A stretch of DNA of 64,000 bases from Halovenus salina (lineage in GTDB: Archaea > Halobacteriota > Halobacteria > Halobacteriales > Haloarculaceae): NCBI RefSeq assembly GCF_026410925.1, contig NZ_CP112972.1, positions 2,046,001-2,110,000 of the forward strand, read 5' to 3'. The notes under the pieces were generated by a model. The model was not told where the DNA came from. It saw nothing but the letters and a program-made list of their open reading frames with translations, and ran no database searches. The position numbers were made by a program, and so were the translations under genes. This document shows, piece by piece, positions 26,914 through 33,963 of the stretch. The first letter of the stretch is position 1, and each line of letters starts with the position of its first letter.

Positions 26914-27864
26914 ATGAGAGTGACGTTCCTCGGGACGAGCGGTGCAGTGCCGACGACGGTCCGGAACCCGAGCGGGCTGTTAGTCGAACGCGAGGGTGAC
27001 CGGCTGCTGTTTGACTGCGGCGAGGGAACCCAGCGTCAGATGATGCGCTACGGGACGGGATTCGATGTCGAACACGTCTTTCTAACCCACACCCATGGCG
27101 ACCATATCTTCGGGCTGCCGGGCCTCACCCAGACCTGGGACTTCCAGGACCGCGACACGCCGCTTGCGGTACACGCTCCCGCCGGGACGCGTGACCGCAT
27201 CGAGACTCTGCTGTCGGCGACCGGCGAGAGCCCATCGTATCCCGTCAGGGTCACGCAGGTATCGGCCGGCGATGTGGTGCTCGACCGCGAGGCCTACGAA
27301 GTGCGGGCTGTCGGTGTCAACCACCGGACGAACGCAGTCGGCTACGCGCTCGTCGAGGACGACCGAAAGGGCGAGTTCGACCGCGAGAAAGCCGAAGGCG
27401 AACTCGGCATCCCTCCGGGACCGAAGTACTCGACGCTCCACGCGGGCGAACCGGTCGAACACGACGGGCGGACGATCCAGCCCGAGGAGGTCGTCGGCGA
27501 ACCTCGGTCCGGCCGGCGACTCGTCTACACGGGCGATACGCGGCCGACCGACGGCGTTGTTGAGGCCGCCGAAGGGGCCGACCTGCTCGTCCACGACGGC
27601 ACCTTCGGTGAGGACCACCGCGAACGGGCGCTCGAAACGGCACACTCGACGGCCCGAGAGGCAGCCCAGGTCGCCAGCGACGCCGGCGCGAAACGGCTCG
27701 CGTTGACCCATCTCTCGACGCGGTACACCGGCCAGGCGGCCGAACTCGAATCACAGGCCGCCGAGCGCTTCGACGGGACCGTCTTCGTCCCCGACGACGG
27801 CACGCAGGTAACGGTCCCCTACCCCGACTCCGACCGCGAGTTCCAGGTCGACCAGCTCGGCTAG
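26914..27864 (+). CDS. rnz: Ribonuclease Z (tRNA 3' endonuclease)
   Basis: Matures tRNA 3' ends. A 316-residue metallo-beta-lactamase-fold protein with MRVTFLGTSGAVPTTVRNPS at the N-terminus, the metal motif THTHGDHIFGLPGL near residue 61, YTGDTRPTD near 206, and THLSTRY near 267. PGPKYSTLHAGE near 165 is a family signature. It is convergent with the MinD-like gene, the stops overlapping by 4 bp. Confidence 0.95.
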   Translation: MRVTFLGTSGAVPTTVRNPSGLLVEREGDRLLFDCGEGTQRQMMRYGTGFDVEHVFLTHTHGDHIFGLPGLTQTWDFQDRDTPLAVHAPAGTRDRIETLLSATGESPSYPVRVTQVSAGDVVLDREAYEVRAVGVNHRTNAVGYALVEDDRKGEFDREKAEGELGIPPGPKYSTLHAGEPVEHDGRTIQPEEVVGEPRSGRRLVYTGDTRPTDGVVEAAEGADLLVHDGTFGEDHRERALETAHSTAREAAQVASDAGAKRLALTHLSTRYTGQAAELESQAAERFDGTVFVPDDGTQVTVPYPDSDREFQVDQLG

Positions 27865-28532
27865 CCGACTCCTTGTTTGACCTGTGTCGCGAGCGTTGCG
27901 AACGCGACCGTCGCCCTGTCATCTGGGTCGACCGCACGGACTGGGAGACCCGCCCGCTGTGCGCGCCTGACCGCCGGCGAGTCCGGAATCTGTGTGACCG
28001 GTCCCTCCAGTGTCGTGGCGAGTCGGTCGAGGCGGTTCTCGGGATAGGACTGTTCGACGCGGTTGAGGACGACCCGAGCGAGCGGGGTGTCGACGGCGCG
28101 GGCCAGTTCTCGTGCTCGGACTGCGTCGGCAACTGCCGGCCTGGTCGGACGGGTGACCAGCAGGCACGCATCGGCCGCGAGCAACGCCACACCGACGTCG
28201 GACCGCAACCCTGCCGGTACGTCGACGACGACGGTCCCATACTGTCGCTCGACCGCATCGACGACGTCTGCCAGCGCGGTCGGGTCCGCGCCGCGACCGC
28301 CCGCCAGCGACCGGCCACACGGCAAGAGTCTGACTGCCCCCTCCTCGGAGACGGCTTCGAGCGGTGTCGCCCGGCCGGCGAGCACGTCGTGGAGGTCGGG
28401 CCCGCGTCGTGCGGGAAGGTCTGCCATTCCCAGGTCGCCGTCGATGACGACGCCGTCGAGTTCGGCCCCGAGATTGTACGCGACTGTCGACTTCCCGACG
28501 CCGCCCTTGCCGCCAGTGACTGCCAGCTTCAT
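27861..28532 (-). CDS. MinD/ParA-family ATPase
   Basis: A 223-residue P-loop ATPase. The deviant Walker A GGKGGVGKST is at residues 7-16 with the signature lysine at 9; VIDGDLGMADLP near 29 is switch I/A', and VVVDVPAGLRSDVG near 100 is Walker B/switch II. No clear C-terminal amphipathic membrane helix is seen, unlike bacterial MinD. Family members position division, chemotaxis or motility machinery by ATP-dependent dimerisation. It is the last gene of a six-gene cluster with two coiled-coil proteins and a RecA-like protein, and overlaps the preceding gene by 4 bp. The target is unknown. Confidence 0.85.
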   Translation of the reverse strand: MKLAVTGGKGGVGKSTVAYNLGAELDGVVIDGDLGMADLPARRGPDLHDVLAGRATPLEAVSEEGAVRLLPCGRSLAGGRGADPTALADVVDAVERQYGTVVVDVPAGLRSDVGVALLAADACLLVTRPTRPAVADAVRARELARAVDTPLARVVLNRVEQSYPENRLDRLATTLEGPVTQIPDSPAVRRAQRAGLPVRAVDPDDRATVAFATLATQVKQGVG

Positions 28533-29251
28533 ACGACCCGTTCGAGTGTCGCCAGCGGCAGGTCGACGGCCGCGAGTTCCTCGGCCAGCGTCTCCGACCG
28601 CCGCCGGAGTTCTTGGAGCTGTCGCCTATCTTCGTCGAGCTGTGCTTGGAGCTCTCGGACCGCCTCGATGCCGCCGGCCGCCTCGACCGCGTCGCGTATC
28701 TCGTCGGCGTCTGTTGCCCCGGCCAGGCGCTCGGTCTCGTCGAGGCGGCCCTCGACAGCCTCGAACCACGCGGTCGGCTCTGTGGCCGTCGCCGAAGCTG
28801 CGTGCTCCGCCTTCGCCCGCGTCGTCTTGGCTTCGTCCACCGCTCGCTTGCTCCCGCCGTCGACGGCTGTCGGGCACGTCTCCTGCGCCGGCCCGGCCGG
28901 TGGTGTCGCCGGCAGGACATCCCGCGGTGGCCGGGGGTCTCCGAGTGTTCGAACGAGACGGCGTGGCGTCACCCCCGCCTCTTCGGGGCGTCCGGTCGCT
29001 GTTATCTTTGCGGGTGGCTCTTGTGGGGGTACGGGTGTCGCATAGCCCACGACGAGTGGCTCGTCCGCGCTGACGGTCCCCTCGAAGGTGTTCTCCTGCC
29101 AGCCCTGTGTCGGCACACCCTGCTCTCTGGGGGGCCAGACCGGCCGCAGGCAGCTCTCGATTGTCACCTGCTGGGCGCGGTCGCCCTGGACCGAGAGTTC
29201 GACGAGGGTCACCTCGCCTGTGCGTCTGAGTTGCCAGTCGAGCGTCGCCAT
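28529..29251 (-). CDS. Conserved haloarchaeal protein with beta-rich N-terminus and C-terminal coiled coil
   Basis: A 240-residue protein of unknown function. Residues about 1-85 look beta-rich (MATLDWQLRRTGEVTLVEL) with conserved-looking WPPREQGVPTQGWQENTF. A Pro/Ala-rich linker follows, then a Glu/Arg/Leu-rich coiled coil (about 160-235, ending LEELRRRSETLAEEL-like heptads). The ATG at 29251 is preferred to the frame start at 29389, which would overlap the upstream intergenic region with basic, non-haloarchaeal residues. It overlaps the MinD-like gene by 4 bp (ATGA), suggesting a coupled partner of that ATPase. Confidence 0.65.
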   Translation of the reverse strand: MATLDWQLRRTGEVTLVELSVQGDRAQQVTIESCLRPVWPPREQGVPTQGWQENTFEGTVSADEPLVVGYATPVPPQEPPAKITATGRPEEAGVTPRRLVRTLGDPRPPRDVLPATPPAGPAQETCPTAVDGGSKRAVDEAKTTRAKAEHAASATATEPTAWFEAVEGRLDETERLAGATDADEIRDAVEAAGGIEAVRELQAQLDEDRRQLQELRRRSETLAEELAAVDLPLATLERVV

Positions 29252-29276
29252 GGGCGCTCTGGTCACCCCCTCGTAC

Positions 29277-30113
29277 TTAAACGTCGAGGACGGGCGCACC
29301 GAGGTACTCGCGTGCTGTCTCGGCCGACGTGAACCGGTCGACAACGAGCACGACCGGTGCCTGCACCTCGCCGAGGCGGACGAGCGCAAGCGCCGCAGTG
29401 ACGGCCTCGGCTTCGAACGGTGCAGTCACCGCTCCTGTGACCGCCGAGCCGGGAACCGTCGGCAAGACAGCACAGAATTCCTCCCGGAGGCAATCGACGA
29501 GGTGTGCACGGGCGTTGCGTTCGAGATTTGCGACCCGCTGTTCGAGTCGGAACCGACGCTCGCGGCGGTCCCGGCGCTCGCGCCGTCGCTTTCGGTCTCG
29601 TTCGTAGGCCTGTCTGGCCGCGATGGCGTCGGTCTCGGCCTCAGTCAGTGTCTGTAACGCCTCATCGAGTTCGGATTCGGCCGGCTCGGTCTCCAGGCCG
29701 GCGTCTGCCCGCTCGCGGACGCGGCCACGCGACTCGGCGGCACGAATCCGTGCCTGGTCGACGGCCGCTTCTGCGTCGGCGAGGCGTTCTCGCTGTGAAT
29801 CGAGCGGTTCCGATTCGACGGAGATTGCTTCGAGGTCGCGTCTCGCCTCCTGCAGTTCCTCGTCGTACGGTGTGTCGAGGCCGCGCGTCCGGGCGGCCCG
29901 GGCGAGTGCGGTCTTCGTCCGCAGCCCCATCCCGGGACGGATACAGCCGACGGCTTCGTGTAGCGGTGCGGGCTCCGGGCAGTCGACCTCGATTCGCCGG
30001 TCTGTCGTCTCTCCCGTCTGTCGAACTGCGGCGGCGACGACTTCGGGGTCGATATCCGTCGCGACCGAAACGGTCTCACCCGTTCGGACGACATCACCCA
30101 GACGACAAATCAC
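29277..30113 (-). CDS. Conserved haloarchaeal coiled-coil protein
   Basis: A 278-residue protein of unknown function. The N-terminus (MICRLGDVVRTGETVSVATD, to about residue 75) and the C-terminus (AALALVRLGEVQAPVVLVVD onward) look globular. They flank a long Glu/Arg/Ala coiled coil (about 80-205), with a very basic stretch RKRRRERRDRRERRFR near 175. It overlaps the upstream 115-residue protein by 20 bp and is followed 25 bp later by another coiled-coil gene. It is a candidate scaffold or effector in the MinD cluster; I could not name a family with certainty. Confidence 0.6.
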   Translation of the reverse strand: MICRLGDVVRTGETVSVATDIDPEVVAAAVRQTGETTDRRIEVDCPEPAPLHEAVGCIRPGMGLRTKTALARAARTRGLDTPYDEELQEARRDLEAISVESEPLDSQRERLADAEAAVDQARIRAAESRGRVRERADAGLETEPAESELDEALQTLTEAETDAIAARQAYERDRKRRRERRDRRERRFRLEQRVANLERNARAHLVDCLREEFCAVLPTVPGSAVTGAVTAPFEAEAVTAALALVRLGEVQAPVVLVVDRFTSAETAREYLGAPVLDV

Positions 30114-30441
30114 GGTCTTTCATCTCCGTTGGCGCTGGTAGCTCTGTCCCTGTCTGGAACTGCTCGTAGGGAAGTGACGGTGTCTCCCGGTCCTCGTATG
30201 CGGCTGCTGCCGCTCGCACCTCAGAGCGAAGGGCCGCGAACTCGTTGAACGGGACCGTCTGTTCGAGCTGGATTGCCTCGCCGTGTTTTTCTCGCAAGCG
30301 GAGTGCCTGGAACGCGCCGAACTCGGTCGCCTCGAAGAGGGCAACGCGGCCGAACTGACGGACGACGGTCCCATCGTGGCTCCGACAGACGTTTCGCAAG
30401 CTCTGTCGCGCCTCCCGTGAGTACGCAATGACCAGTAACAC
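30094..30441 (-). CDS. Small conserved haloarchaeal protein
   Basis: A 115-residue protein of unknown function, from GTG at 30441 (reading VLLVIAYSREARQSLRNVCR). Features are REARQSLRNVCRSHDGTVVR near residue 8, FEATEFGAFQALRLREKHG near 37 and FNEFAALRSEVRAAAAAYE near 70. The start is inferred: the frame continues upstream to 30597 but that part is basic and overlaps the next gene. The 20 bp overlap with the following coiled-coil gene argues for one transcript. Confidence 0.55.
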   Translation of the reverse strand: MLLVIAYSREARQSLRNVCRSHDGTVVRQFGRVALFEATEFGAFQALRLREKHGEAIQLEQTVPFNEFAALRSEVRAAAAAYEDRETPSLPYEQFQTGTELPAPTEMKDRDLSSG

Positions 30442-30487
30442 AGCGGACGGTGGCGGCCGTCGACCACCTAAACTATTCGAAACGCCC

Positions 30488-31060
30488 TCACTCAGCCGCG
30501 AGCAGCTCCCGTGTCCGGACGCTGGGCTCGTCGCCAAGAGATACCTTTGCGTCGAACAGCGACGTAATCGATGCGACGTGTTCCGCGTCGTGTGCATCGG
30601 GGTCGATGTGGAAGTGTGAGTGTGCGCCGGCGGCGTGAATCTGGCCGGTTATCGCGTGCAGAAACTCGTAGGCCGTGTTGACGTCGACGTACTGGAGCAT
30701 CGAGGTGAGCGAGTCGAAACAGACGAAAACGGGTCCGTCCCACTCTGAAAGGAACTGTCCGATTGTGATACCTAGCCCGGTGAGGTCACTTGGCGAGGAG
30801 ACTGTCTCCGTGACGACGCCGTCGCGAGCTTCCGGCGAGGCGTCTCCGACGGTGACGACACCGACCTTGTCGAGGTCGTCGTGCCCGTCGAGTTGTGCGA
30901 CACAGTCCGCGGCCGAGCGCGTGTACGTGACAAAGAGCACACTCGGCGCTGGCTGCTGGTCACACAGCAGTGACGTACAGACATCACGCCCCTGTCCCAT
31001 CGGCGGCTCCGCGAGCAAGACGTTCGTCGTCTCCTCGAGTTGGTCGTGTATATTCTCCAT
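30488..31060 (-). CDS. RecA/KaiC-superfamily-like protein (haloarchaeal DUF7504/HTR-like type)
   Basis: A 190-residue alpha/beta protein resembling a degenerate RecA/KaiC core. MENIHDQLEETTNVLLAEPP starts it; AEPPMGQGRDVCTSLL near residue 17 occupies the Walker A place but lacks the GKT/S signature, so ATP binding is doubtful. GPVFVCFDSLTSMLQYVDVN near 108 corresponds to the Walker B strand. The ATG at 31060 is chosen as the first Met before the fold. Similar haloarchaeal proteins are linked with sensory or chemotaxis output, which fits a signalling or positioning role here. Confidence 0.6.
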   Translation of the reverse strand: MENIHDQLEETTNVLLAEPPMGQGRDVCTSLLCDQQPAPSVLFVTYTRSAADCVAQLDGHDDLDKVGVVTVGDASPEARDGVVTETVSSPSDLTGLGITIGQFLSEWDGPVFVCFDSLTSMLQYVDVNTAYEFLHAITGQIHAAGAHSHFHIDPDAHDAEHVASITSLFDAKVSLGDEPSVRTRELLAAE

Positions 31061-31118
31061 CGTCGGCTCGTTTGTCGGTGAGACGGCCTTGAGATATAAA
31101 CCGCTTTGTCTTCTCGTA

Positions 31119-31724
31119 TCAGAACTCGACATCGACTTCGGCATCTTCGGTAGCCTCGTCGAGTCCGTCACGCTGGGCGTCGGCCGCGAGCTGTGTGCTC
31201 AACTCGATGTCGGTCAGACACTCCTCGAAGGTCGTCCGAAACCGGTGACTGACACGCCGCGACCGGGCGTTTGCCTGGACGACTGCCAGGATGCGCTCGA
31301 TTTCAGTCGCGGTCAGGTCGAATTCTGCTGCCAGTGTCTCGGGGTCGGCGTCGGCCCGCTCGCGCAGCAATTCCCACGTTTCCTCACTGGCGGTGACAGC
31401 TGGCGGGTCGTCGTCGCGAACGAGATGCAGTGACATGCGCGTCTCGAAGACCGTCGCCGTCGGGACCGACAGCTCCGCCGCCAGGGTCTCGTCGTCGGCC
31501 CCCTCGTAGAACCGTTCGACGAGTGTTTGTCGCTGCTCGGTCGAGCAGTCGGTCTCGATGTCGAATTTCTCCTCGAGCTCTTCGATTGCCCCAGTGAGGC
31601 GCTCTCTGTCAACCTTGCCGCTGTCGGCTACCGACCCACGTAACTCTTCCTGTGACTCTGTAACCGCTTCTTCCTCTGAAACGTCGAGAAAGATATCCCG
31701 GAGTTCCTCGGTCTTCTCGTCCAT
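31119..31724 (-). CDS. Cmi4-like protein (conditioned-medium-induced protein 4)
   Basis: A 201-residue acidic protein beginning MDEKTEELRDIFLDVSEEEAV, which I recognise as the pattern of Haloferax Cmi4, a gene induced by conditioned medium; the biochemical role is unknown. Two helix-turn-helix-like segments are visible: DETLAAELSVPTATVFETR near residue 77 and PETLAAEFDLTATEIERIL near 127, suggesting DNA binding. A TATA box (TTTTTATA, minus strand 31750-31757) is 26 bp upstream, so this is probably the promoter-proximal gene of the cluster down to the MinD-like gene. Confidence 0.7.
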   Translation of the reverse strand: MDEKTEELRDIFLDVSEEEAVTESQEELRGSVADSGKVDRERLTGAIEELEEKFDIETDCSTEQRQTLVERFYEGADDETLAAELSVPTATVFETRMSLHLVRDDDPPAVTASEETWELLRERADADPETLAAEFDLTATEIERILAVVQANARSRRVSHRFRTTFEECLTDIELSTQLAADAQRDGLDEATEDAEVDVEF

Positions 31725-31749: not shown

Positions 31750-31824
31750 TATAAAAATCTGACTCACGGACTCACGCGATAGCCAACCGAGAACAACTGA
31801 GGCCGGATGGAGAAAAGGTTTAAG
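31750..31824. promoter_or_regulatory. Divergent TATA boxes: Cmi4-like gene and FeS oxidoreductase gene
   Basis: On the minus strand TTTTTATA (31750-31757) is 26 bp before the ATG at 31724. On the plus strand TTTAAG (31819-31824) is 28 bp before the ATG at 31852. Both fit leaderless haloarchaeal transcripts. Confidence 0.5.
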
Positions 31825-31851
31825 CAGATTGCAGTCTCGGGTTTATATACT

Positions 31852-33963
31852 ATGAGTGACGTCACACGGGAGACGTTCTGGCAGATAAGCGCGGTCGGGG
31901 AGATCATCTTCTATTTCCTGACAGCAGTCACGATACTGGTGTTCATCTACGGGGTCTACAGCCGATTCGCTCGCTATGCACGAGGGACCGAAGACCCGTT
32001 CCCGCGGCTGGACGACATCGGGACGCGGGTCCGAGAGGCCTCGCGTATCGCCTTCTCGAACGAGAAACAGTTCAACCGCGACCTCGTCGGCGGACTGATG
32101 CACTCGTTTATCCTCTGGGGGTTTCTGACGCTTCTCATCGGGACGACCATTCTGTCTATCGACAAGTACGCCTACAAGCCCTTTACCGGCGAATCCTTCT
32201 ACGTCGGTGACTTCTTCCTCTCGTACTCGTTCGTGATGGACCTGATGGGGCTGCTCTTTGTCTGTGGTATCTCGATTGCCATCTACCGGCGCTACGTCGT
32301 CCGCAACGAGCGCCTCTGGGGCAAACACACCGGCTACGAAGACGACCTGTTCGTCTGGTCGCTGTTTTTCCTCGGCGTCGGCGGCTTCCTGCTCGAAAGC
32401 GTCCGCATCGCCGGCTGGCAGGGCGGTCCACAGGCCTTCGAGCAGGTGAGCTTCGTGAGCTACTTCCTCGCGAACACCTACCAGACTCTCGGCCTGACCG
32501 CAAGCGGCGCACAGAGCATCTATCCCGCCGTCTGGTGGGGCCACTCGATTCTGGCGCTGTGGTTCATCGCCTGGATTCCCTACGCGAAGCCGTTTCACAT
32601 GCTCTCGTCGTTCGCAAACGTCGTCGTGCGCGACCCCAAGGCGGGCGCACGGCTTCCGGGCGTGCCAGCAGACCCCGCGGCCGACACCGCGACCGAGGAG
32701 ATAGACGACTTCTCCTGGAAACAGATTCTCGACCAGGACGCCTGCACGAAGTGTGGCCGGTGTTCGTCTGTCTGCCCGGCGAAAGCCTCCGGTCGGCCGC
32801 TTGACCCCCGTGATGTCATCCTCGATTTGAAAGGCTACCGCGAACAGCACGACGCCGGCGAGGAGGACATCCCTATCATCGCCGACGGCGGGACGAGCGT
32901 CATCGACAGTTCGACGATGGAGTCCTGTATGTCCTGTATGGCCTGCATGGACGCCTGTCCGGTCGAAATCGAGCACCTGACCCACTTCACCGACATGAAC
33001 CGCCAGCTCGTCGAGCAGGCTGACGTGGACTCGAACGCCCAGGACGTCTTCCAGAACGTGATGCAGCAGGGCAACACCTTCGGCGACCCGGCGCGCAACC
33101 GCCCGGACTGGACCGAGGACCTCGACTTCGAGGTTCCCGACGCACGCGAGGAGTCCGTCGAGTTCCTCTGGTACGTCGGCGACTACCCCAGCTACGACGA
33201 GCGCAACCAGGAGGTCGCAAAGAGTCTGGCACGTCTCTTCGAGGCCGCTGATGTCGAGTACGGCATCCTCTACGAGGACGAGGTCTACGACGCAAACGAC
33301 GTGCGTCGGATGGGCGAGGAACTGCTGTACGTCGACCAGGCCTCCCAGCTCATCGGGGCCTTCGAAGACTGCGAGTTCGAGACCGTCGTCTGTACGGACC
33401 CCCACTCGTTCAACACCATCACCAACGAGTACCCGGAAATCGACTTCGGCGAGTACGCCGACGACCCGATGATGGAGGTGCCCGTCGAGGGCTACTGGAA
33501 CGCCGACGGGACGTACGACGTGAAACACTACACGCAGGTCGTCGCCAACCTCGTCGAGTCCGGGACGCTCGACGTGCCGGGGGCGCTCGATTACACTGCT
33601 ACCTATCACGACCCCTGTCATCTGGGTCGGTACAACGACGTCTTCGAGGCACCCCGCGAGCTCGTCGTCGAGACGGGCTGTGAGCTCCACGAGATGCCCC
33701 GCAACCGCGCCGATTCGTTCTGTTGTGGCGGCGGTGGCGGCGGCCTCTGGATGGACTACGACGAGGAGCCAAAGCCGAGCGAGGAACGACTCCGGGAGGC
33801 ACTCGAAGATACTGACGCTGGAAGCGCCGTCGAGAAGTTCGTCGTCGCCTGCCCGATGTGTATGACGATGTACGAGGACGGCCGCAAGACCGGCGGCTTC
33901 GAGGACGATATCGAAATCGTCGGCCTGACAGAACTGCTCGCCGAATCCATCCAGGCTGCCTAA
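31852..33963 (+). CDS. Membrane-anchored FeS oxidoreductase, heterodisulfide-reductase-like (CCG domain)
   Basis: A 703-residue fusion. Residues about 15-265 contain five or six membrane helices of the nitrate-reductase-gamma/HdrE type and may bind heme b. A 4Fe-4S dicluster domain follows: CTKCGRCSSVCPAKASG near 302 and CMSCMACMDACPVEIEHL near 362. The C-terminus has cysteine-rich CCG modules, notably HDPCHLGRYND near 588, FCCGGGGGGLW near 623 and ACPMCMTMY near 667. It probably passes electrons between menaquinone and a soluble partner (for example an acyl-CoA dehydrogenase/ETF chain). Partner genes are not adjacent, so the role is inferred. ATG 31852 fits the TATA box. Confidence 0.85.
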   Translation: MSDVTRETFWQISAVGEIIFYFLTAVTILVFIYGVYSRFARYARGTEDPFPRLDDIGTRVREASRIAFSNEKQFNRDLVGGLMHSFILWGFLTLLIGTTILSIDKYAYKPFTGESFYVGDFFLSYSFVMDLMGLLFVCGISIAIYRRYVVRNERLWGKHTGYEDDLFVWSLFFLGVGGFLLESVRIAGWQGGPQAFEQVSFVSYFLANTYQTLGLTASGAQSIYPAVWWGHSILALWFIAWIPYAKPFHMLSSFANVVVRDPKAGARLPGVPADPAADTATEEIDDFSWKQILDQDACTKCGRCSSVCPAKASGRPLDPRDVILDLKGYREQHDAGEEDIPIIADGGTSVIDSSTMESCMSCMACMDACPVEIEHLTHFTDMNRQLVEQADVDSNAQDVFQNVMQQGNTFGDPARNRPDWTEDLDFEVPDAREESVEFLWYVGDYPSYDERNQEVAKSLARLFEAADVEYGILYEDEVYDANDVRRMGEELLYVDQASQLIGAFEDCEFETVVCTDPHSFNTITNEYPEIDFGEYADDPMMEVPVEGYWNADGTYDVKHYTQVVANLVESGTLDVPGALDYTATYHDPCHLGRYNDVFEAPRELVVETGCELHEMPRNRADSFCCGGGGGGLWMDYDEEPKPSEERLREALEDTDAGSAVEKFVVACPMCMTMYEDGRKTGGFEDDIEIVGLTELLAESIQAA

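Follow-up and report, generated by a model that had tools for sequence, protein, structure and literature searches.

The window studied here is a stretch of 64,000 nucleotides from the haloarchaeon Halovenus salina (contig NZ_CP112972.1, positions 2,046,001 to 2,110,000), and the subject of this report is a cluster of six minus-strand open reading frames (ORFs) at positions 27861-31724 of it. Read in the direction of transcription, the cluster consists of a Cmi4-like gene (31119..31724, 201 amino acids (aa)), a gene for a KaiC/RecA-fold protein (DUF7504/DUF7090) that has lost its Walker A motif (30488..31060, 190 aa), three genes named by Pfam, DUF7855 (30094..30441, 115 aa), DUF7856 (29277..30113, 278 aa) and DUF7857 (28529..29251, 240 aa), and a gene for a MinD1-type ATPase (CbiA/ParA) with an intact KGGVGKS motif (27861..28532, 223 aa). 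DUF7855 and DUF7856 overlap by 20 base pairs (bp), and DUF7857 and the MinD gene by 4 bp. ORF calling and Pfam agree in this with the preliminary description of the DNA, which gave the same positions and overlaps and a MinD/ParA ATPase as the last gene. That description overlooked the usual link of these genes to MCM, the gene of the replicative helicase; the link is lost in the genus of the window, in which Cmi4 lies beside the cassette. Comparison with other genomes demonstrated that the cluster is a relocated copy of a haloarchaea-specific gene cassette that normally lies directly behind MCM, and that five of the six genes are relocated members of this cassette; Cmi4 is not among them.

We read 40 loci around DUF7856 and 40 more, mostly around MCM, with profiles. 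MCM, DUF7854, DUF7858 and TFB of one locus were named by Pfam, and the HIT label was read from the sequence. The gene caller was simple and missed genes, and where it returned nothing (L033 and L042) profiles were used instead. After 14 truncated or duplicate loci had been dropped, 87 were kept for the counts of gaps, promoters, lengths and arrangements, and genome position tables and co-occurrence counts were compiled by hand from the profile-search outputs. The usual haloarchaeal order is MCM–DUF7854–(KaiC-like)–DUF7855–DUF7856–DUF7857–MinD1, followed 3' of MinD1 by a convergent TFB gene, DUF7858, a second ParA-like gene (ParA2) and a HIT gene. MCM is present in all 194 Halobacteria genomes and DUF7856 in 119. 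Among the 77 genomes with both positions listed (42 of the 119 DUF7856 genomes have no listed MCM position and stand outside this count), 68 have MCM less than 12 kb 5' of DUF7856 and in the same orientation; a contig end accounts for one (G121) of the nine exceptions. At 47 of 48 loci, that of the window's genome among them, DUF7854 is the gene directly after MCM, less than 3 kb away and on its strand; the median gap is 0.5 bp over 48 pairs, an approximate value taken from profile start positions.

The 194 genomes sample 65 genera, among which DUF7856 was found in 38, DUF7855 in 41 and DUF7857 in 49. Because the families and the locus recur across these genera with a conserved order, chance is an insufficient explanation, and the conservation of gene order reaches well past the strain of the window. 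In a search of the phylum, DUF7855 was found in 33 of 246 genomes, all 33 from the window's own genome, family or order; among the more distant genomes listed, none gave a DUF7855 match. A literature search on DUF7854-7857 returned no paper. These data support the view that the cassette is real, widely conserved and uncharacterised.

In the window's genome, MCM–DUF7854 lies 1.3 Mb away from the six-gene cluster. The same six-gene arrangement without a nearby MCM was seen in 5 of the 87 loci: the window, G117, G180 and two loci from metagenome-assembled genomes (MAGs; L001 and L003). DUF7854 still stands behind MCM in the window's genome (G000), G117 and G180 (loci L061-L063). Three loci taken to be from Haloferax (L046, L089 and L090) run from MCM to MinD1, that of Haloferax larsenii (L089) reading Cmi4–MCM–DUF7854–DUF7855–DUF7856–DUF7857–MinD1; the window differs from them in the distance of its cassette from MCM–DUF7854, in having the KaiC-like gene and in the position of Cmi4 right beside the cassette. 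Haloferax volcanii resembles the window in that DUF7854, DUF7855, DUF7856 and DUF7857 were all matched in its genome, presumably in the same order. In many genomes the open frame of MCM is 1100-2600 aa long (2211 aa in the genome of the window, locus L061, G000:C1:745000-752000), and these overlong frames suggest inteins.

Co-occurrence over the 194 genomes was close. DUF7854 and DUF7856 occur together in 116 and are both missing from 74, with DUF7854 alone in one and DUF7856 alone in three; DUF7855 and DUF7856 occur together in 119 and are both missing from 72, with DUF7855 alone in three. For these counts DUF7854 was scored absent in G012 (a 30-residue fragment) and G067 (below the cut-off), and DUF7855 in G125 (a fragment). 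DUF7857 is the next gene downstream of DUF7856 in 109 of the 114 genomes that have both. DUF7854 and DUF7856 are both kept even where they lie far apart (G000, G117, G180 and G142) or on separate contigs (G131). In G136, G142, G013 and G065 the DUF7857–MinD1 pair is apart while DUF7855–DUF7856 are still together, and in broken-up cassettes DUF7857 and MinD1 move as a pair (L082, L084, L095 and L096). In terms of gene content and order, the cassette thus comprises one module of DUF7854, DUF7855 and DUF7856 and a second module of MinD1 and DUF7857, with the KaiC-fold protein as an optional third part. Each of the two modules may correspond to a protein complex.

The two genes of the second module are almost inseparable. 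MinD1 was found in 142 genomes in 145 copies, and DUF7857 lies directly upstream of 143 of these; the two exceptions are a contig break (G147) and a diverged DUF7857 (G129, L033, 38 bits). Conversely, 6 of 149 DUF7857 copies have no MinD1 listed behind them: that at the G147 contig break, a fragment in G192, and those of four genomes in a single genus (g4). A 4-bp overlap joins the two genes at 35 of 48 loci, as counted approximately from profile start positions. The deviant Walker A motif of MinD1 reads KGGVGK[ST] in 45 of 48 copies and KGGIGKS in L042, and it is degenerate in L028 and L055. The MinD of the window matches a solved archaeal MinD along its whole length (1hyq, MinD-1, E = 6.3e-25, residues 3-221), and its score against the TIGR01969 model minD_arch (140.7 bits, below the cut-off of 201.75) makes it a relative outside the membership of that model. 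In Haloferax volcanii, the available text of two papers gives mcm as HVO_0220 (PMC3972481) and minD1 as HVO_0225 (PMC11588486). These gene numbers and the place of the window MinD in the cassette make orthology with Haloferax MinD1 (HVO_0225) most likely. Like MinD2 and MinD4 of Haloferax, the window MinD is a haloarchaeal MinD-family ATPase. Inspected by eye, the 48 MinD1 C-termini lack a basic/aromatic tail of the kind seen in the long Haloferax MinD (L007/L008), which has an acidic repeat region followed by KKKKGFFSRFLG at its end and is probably MinD4.

ParA/MinD two-component systems such as ParAB, MinDE and SegAB consist of a deviant Walker ATPase and an adjacent small partner gene. The MinD1–DUF7857 pair resembles them in this arrangement and differs in that the partner has no known DNA-binding family among its matches; in Pfam and NCBIfam, the window DUF7857 matched none of the ParB, MinE and SegB families. 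The window DUF7857 has a conserved N-terminal domain of about 110 aa, a variable linker and a helical tail, the tail being read from the sequence. Among 20 paralogous loci, DUF7857 was called in 17 and measures 119-136 aa there, which leaves no room for the tail; in 9 of 48 other loci it has at most 170 aa, with fragments of one gene counted once. What is conserved is therefore the N-terminal domain. The preliminary description had proposed coiled-coil proteins as partners of MinD; the partnership is supported in modified form, by DUF7857 and its position upstream of MinD1, and the coiled coil as the conserved contact is not.

The KaiC-like protein of the window matched DUF7504 (3e-34) and a KaiC chain in the PDB (8zn5, E = 4e-4). 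The RecA-like label given to it earlier is therefore right as to the fold, but the Walker A motif GxxxxGK[ST], with its lysine, is absent by eye from all 22 aligned rows (the window and 21 relatives). A second line of evidence came from paralogous DUF7857–MinD1 pairs, of which there are 34 copies (31 genomes without DUF7856, and second copies in G058, G141 and G161); 20 of these were chosen, one of them (L159) beside MCM. In 17 of the 20 loci the 13-kb stretch also encodes a DUF7125-like KaiC domain, which in 16 of the 17 is joined to a MinD-type Walker A; these counts are partly circular, since 12 of the loci had gone into the DUF7125 profile. The 16 fusion proteins (L145-L149, L151-L158 and L162-L164) combine MinD with a DUF7125-like KaiC domain that also lacks Walker A, and Pfam matched both DUF7125 and CbiA/ParA on the one examined with it. 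In hhalign, the fusion C-terminus aligned with the KaiC-like family of the cassette at 52% (E = 1.4e-4), as compared with at most 0.6% for six control families. Such a fusion in nature is the best argument for assigning the KaiC-like protein and MinD to one system, and it supports the suggestion of a MinD–KaiC connection made before. MinD4 was considered as a candidate MinD::KaiC-like fusion and rejected, as the long Haloferax MinD in L007/L008 had no DUF7125 match. Near several fusions there are HerA-like ATPase, secretion-ATPase-like, coiled-coil and surface-protein-like genes.

DUF7855 is the best conserved of the unknown proteins, with a mean column identity of 71% over 26 rows. Its model has an N-terminal beta-alpha-beta-beta-alpha-beta arrangement, which is ferredoxin-like (mean predicted local distance difference test score (pLDDT) 75). 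A Cas2/VapD-like assignment was set aside, as the best Foldseek match was a mitoribosomal protein (E = 0.028), with Cas2 at 0.055, and none was meaningful. The model of DUF7856, made from six sequences (mean pLDDT 89.5, predicted template modelling score 0.72), has small alpha/beta ends on a long helical hairpin that joins them. Its four best Foldseek matches in the PDB were heads of SMC proteins (E = 0.018-0.042, TM 0.21-0.28); no match reached E = 0.001, and further matches were assorted, mostly coiled-coil proteins. The N- and C-terminal parts of DUF7856 aligned with haloarchaeal SMC/Rad50 heads at an hhalign probability below 1%. The whole protein gave 5% with Rad50 (E = 0.008, coil included) and 1.3% with the Rad50 C-terminal part, against a profile that is impure because one of its seven rows (L143) was read in the wrong frame. 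With DUF7856, a profile search of the PDB gave 16 matches at E values of 10 or lower, mostly coiled coils; neither SMC nor Rad50 was among their names. DUF7856 is thus similar to SMC/Rad50 in having small ends joined by a helical hairpin, and unlike them in lacking visible Walker A and B motifs and profile-level homology to the heads. SMC homology, suggested by Foldseek, was rejected, as hhalign and the PDB profile search gave it no support.

We also asked whether the cluster could be one transcription unit, as had been proposed from a single strong promoter at 31750-31757. The TATA-like element TTTTTATA is present there, before Cmi4 on the minus strand; a second candidate, TTTATAT (31094..31100, minus strand), lies 40 nt before the KaiC-like start. 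We scored runs of at least 7 A/T in 8 nucleotides between -50 and -25, the comparison of one gene with another being the sole control. Such runs precede DUF7855 in 46 of 55 loci, DUF7857 in 17 of 33 and Cmi4 in 9 of 11, and are rare before the KaiC-like gene (4/20), DUF7856 (1/46), MinD1 (5/56) and DUF7854 (3/48). With runs at only 4 of 20 KaiC-like loci, the element at 31094-31100 is not conserved. Between DUF7855 and DUF7856 there is a 4-bp overlap at 22 of 51 loci, by approximate profile starts. The recurrence of AT runs before DUF7855, and often before DUF7857, makes it unlikely that the whole cluster is a single operon.

What might the cassette do? We tentatively favour, at somewhat less than even odds, a MinD/ParA-type positioning or assembly system that serves the chromosome or the replisome. 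This cargo is preferred because MCM is the usual neighbour of the cassette and DUF7854 stays with MCM. In such a system, MinD1 would switch between an ATP-bound dimer and a monomer, as ParA/MinD proteins do, DUF7857 would be its adaptor or ATPase activator, and the KaiC-like protein would act as a scaffold. DUF7854, DUF7855 and DUF7856 could anchor the system on MCM or on the DNA of the chromosome, and MinD1 would thereby position or assemble replication machinery or chromosome copies in polyploid cells. Haloarchaea have several genome copies and perhaps no distinct S phase, according to the accessible part of PMC7617429. No sign of a MinD–MCM neighbourhood in haloarchaea was seen in titles or abstract openings among the literature matches listed. 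According to the available portion of PMC11621097, no function has been described for MinD1, and a Haloferax quadruple minD mutant is as motile as the minD2/4 mutant, so that the loss of minD1 and minD3 adds nothing. The cargo of MinD1 therefore seems not to be the motility machinery, and both motility and division are unlikely cargoes.

Several observations weigh against a chromosomal or replisomal role. Deletion of all four minD genes was reported to have no effect on division or growth (PMC11588486, in the part available, which cites other work), so any chromosomal role would be non-essential. The cassette is apart from MCM in the window's genus, and 75 of the 194 genomes lack DUF7856, with one family (f3) accounting for 49 of these, despite universal MCM. 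There are 31 genomes with MinD1 but no DUF7856, and eight with DUF7856 but no MinD1. The co-absence of the three DUFs is partly due to single deletions of neighbours, and the genomes are not independent samples. TFB, DUF7858, ParA2 and HIT are often conserved at the MCM locus too; stable gene order is therefore a general property of the region, and linkage by itself says little about function. The circularity of the fusion counts belongs here as well, and every interaction, the cargo and the mechanism of the scheme are inferred.

Alternatively, the neighbourhood could simply be stable, with no functional tie to MCM: DUF7857–MinD1 would position another structure, the other DUFs would do something else, and the genes would merely stay between MCM and TFB. 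We consider this explanation nearly as likely as the chromosomal or replisomal one. It is favoured by the places that TFB, DUF7858, ParA2 and HIT hold, the promoter-like AT runs that DUF7855 and DUF7857 have of their own, the MinD1 copies without DUF7856, the dispensability of the cassette, and the paralogous pairs, often found beside HerA-like, secretion-ATPase-like or surface-protein-like genes. It does not readily account for the near confinement of DUF7854 to DUF7856 genomes (116 of 117, G012 and G067 set aside) though MCM is universal, nor for the retention of DUF7854 and DUF7856 in the five genomes where they are far apart.

The same genes could also be read without positioning. DUF7854, DUF7855 and DUF7856 would then modulate the loading or activity of MCM, and DUF7857–MinD1 would be a nucleotide switch or an assembly factor of the Mrp/MinD type. 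DUF7854 directly after MCM is consistent with this, and MinD-superfamily proteins do include assembly factors. We nevertheless consider it improbable, as DUF7855 and DUF7856 showed no likeness to known helicase loaders in Pfam, NCBIfam and PDB sequence searches, nor did DUF7854 in the Pfam scan, the sole library used for it. A long shot is the most specific version of the positioning scheme, a replisome or chromosome positioner of a non-ParABS kind, in which MinD1 with its DUF7857 adaptor and a dead KaiC scaffold would act on an MCM-associated complex of DUF7854, DUF7855 and DUF7856, with DUF7856 as a miniature SMC-like clamp without an ATPase.

Finally, the Cmi4-like gene had been cast as the regulator of a density-responsive system. 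Its product had no Pfam or NCBIfam match above the cut-off, and Cmi4 is the label of the preliminary description; helix-turn-helix-like repeats are visible by eye, and with a weak PDB match to UPF0122 (E = 0.18) they suggest a putative helix-turn-helix protein. Cmi4 is nearly universal in haloarchaea (191 of 194 genomes, with positions listed for 150 of the 191). Where both positions are listed, 3 of 80 genomes have it no more than 3 kb from DUF7856 and 6 of 130 have it that close to MCM, the latter figure being an underestimate, as the listing lacks most Haloferax MCM positions. Such a distribution and such rare linkage rule it out as a core member of the cassette. In the MAG loci L001 and L003, and in the three genomes examined from the genus of the window, it adjoins the cassette. 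It is also the gene just before MCM, in the same orientation and at a gap of about 50-125 bp, in L046, L089 and L090 of Haloferax and in L050 of another genus. A density-responsive positioning or signalling system under a Cmi4-like regulator might draw on these adjacencies to the cassette and to Haloferax MCM, but it is very improbable given the distribution of Cmi4, the separate TATA-like elements, a CMI name that the available text of PMC2841640 (on CMI9) traces to an unpublished GenBank entry, and the absence of a haloarchaeal paper on Cmi4 or conditioned-medium induction among the literature matches listed; the density response had been read from the gene name.

Outside the cassette, the window has a convergent RNase Z gene (26914..27864, plus strand; TIGR02651, 340 bits, above the cut-off) and a divergent Fe-S oxidoreductase-like gene (31807..33963, plus strand). 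A CTAG palindrome at 27861-27864 is common to the last codons of the MinD and RNase Z genes, whose stops overlap. At the usual MCM locus, ParA2 near HIT lacks the Walker A lysine in all 26 copies (L004-L006 and loci within L021-L055); with the motif GGxGTT[RW] in 21 and close variants in five, it is a conserved pseudo-ATPase. Most of the MCM–HIT stretch appears to have been lost at L073 (G012), L074 (G067) and L078 (G125), with remnants of DUF7854 in L073 and of DUF7855 in L078, and the interval is therefore dispensable.

MinD1 is one of the four MinD proteins of a model archaeon, and the cassette gives it named partners and a cargo to test. The MinD::KaiC-like fusion points to dead KaiC domains as repeated partners of MinD. 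The cassette also bears on how haloarchaea distribute replication and chromosomes, and a positioner of the kind outlined above, if true, would couple the position of the replication fork to the distribution of many chromosome copies.

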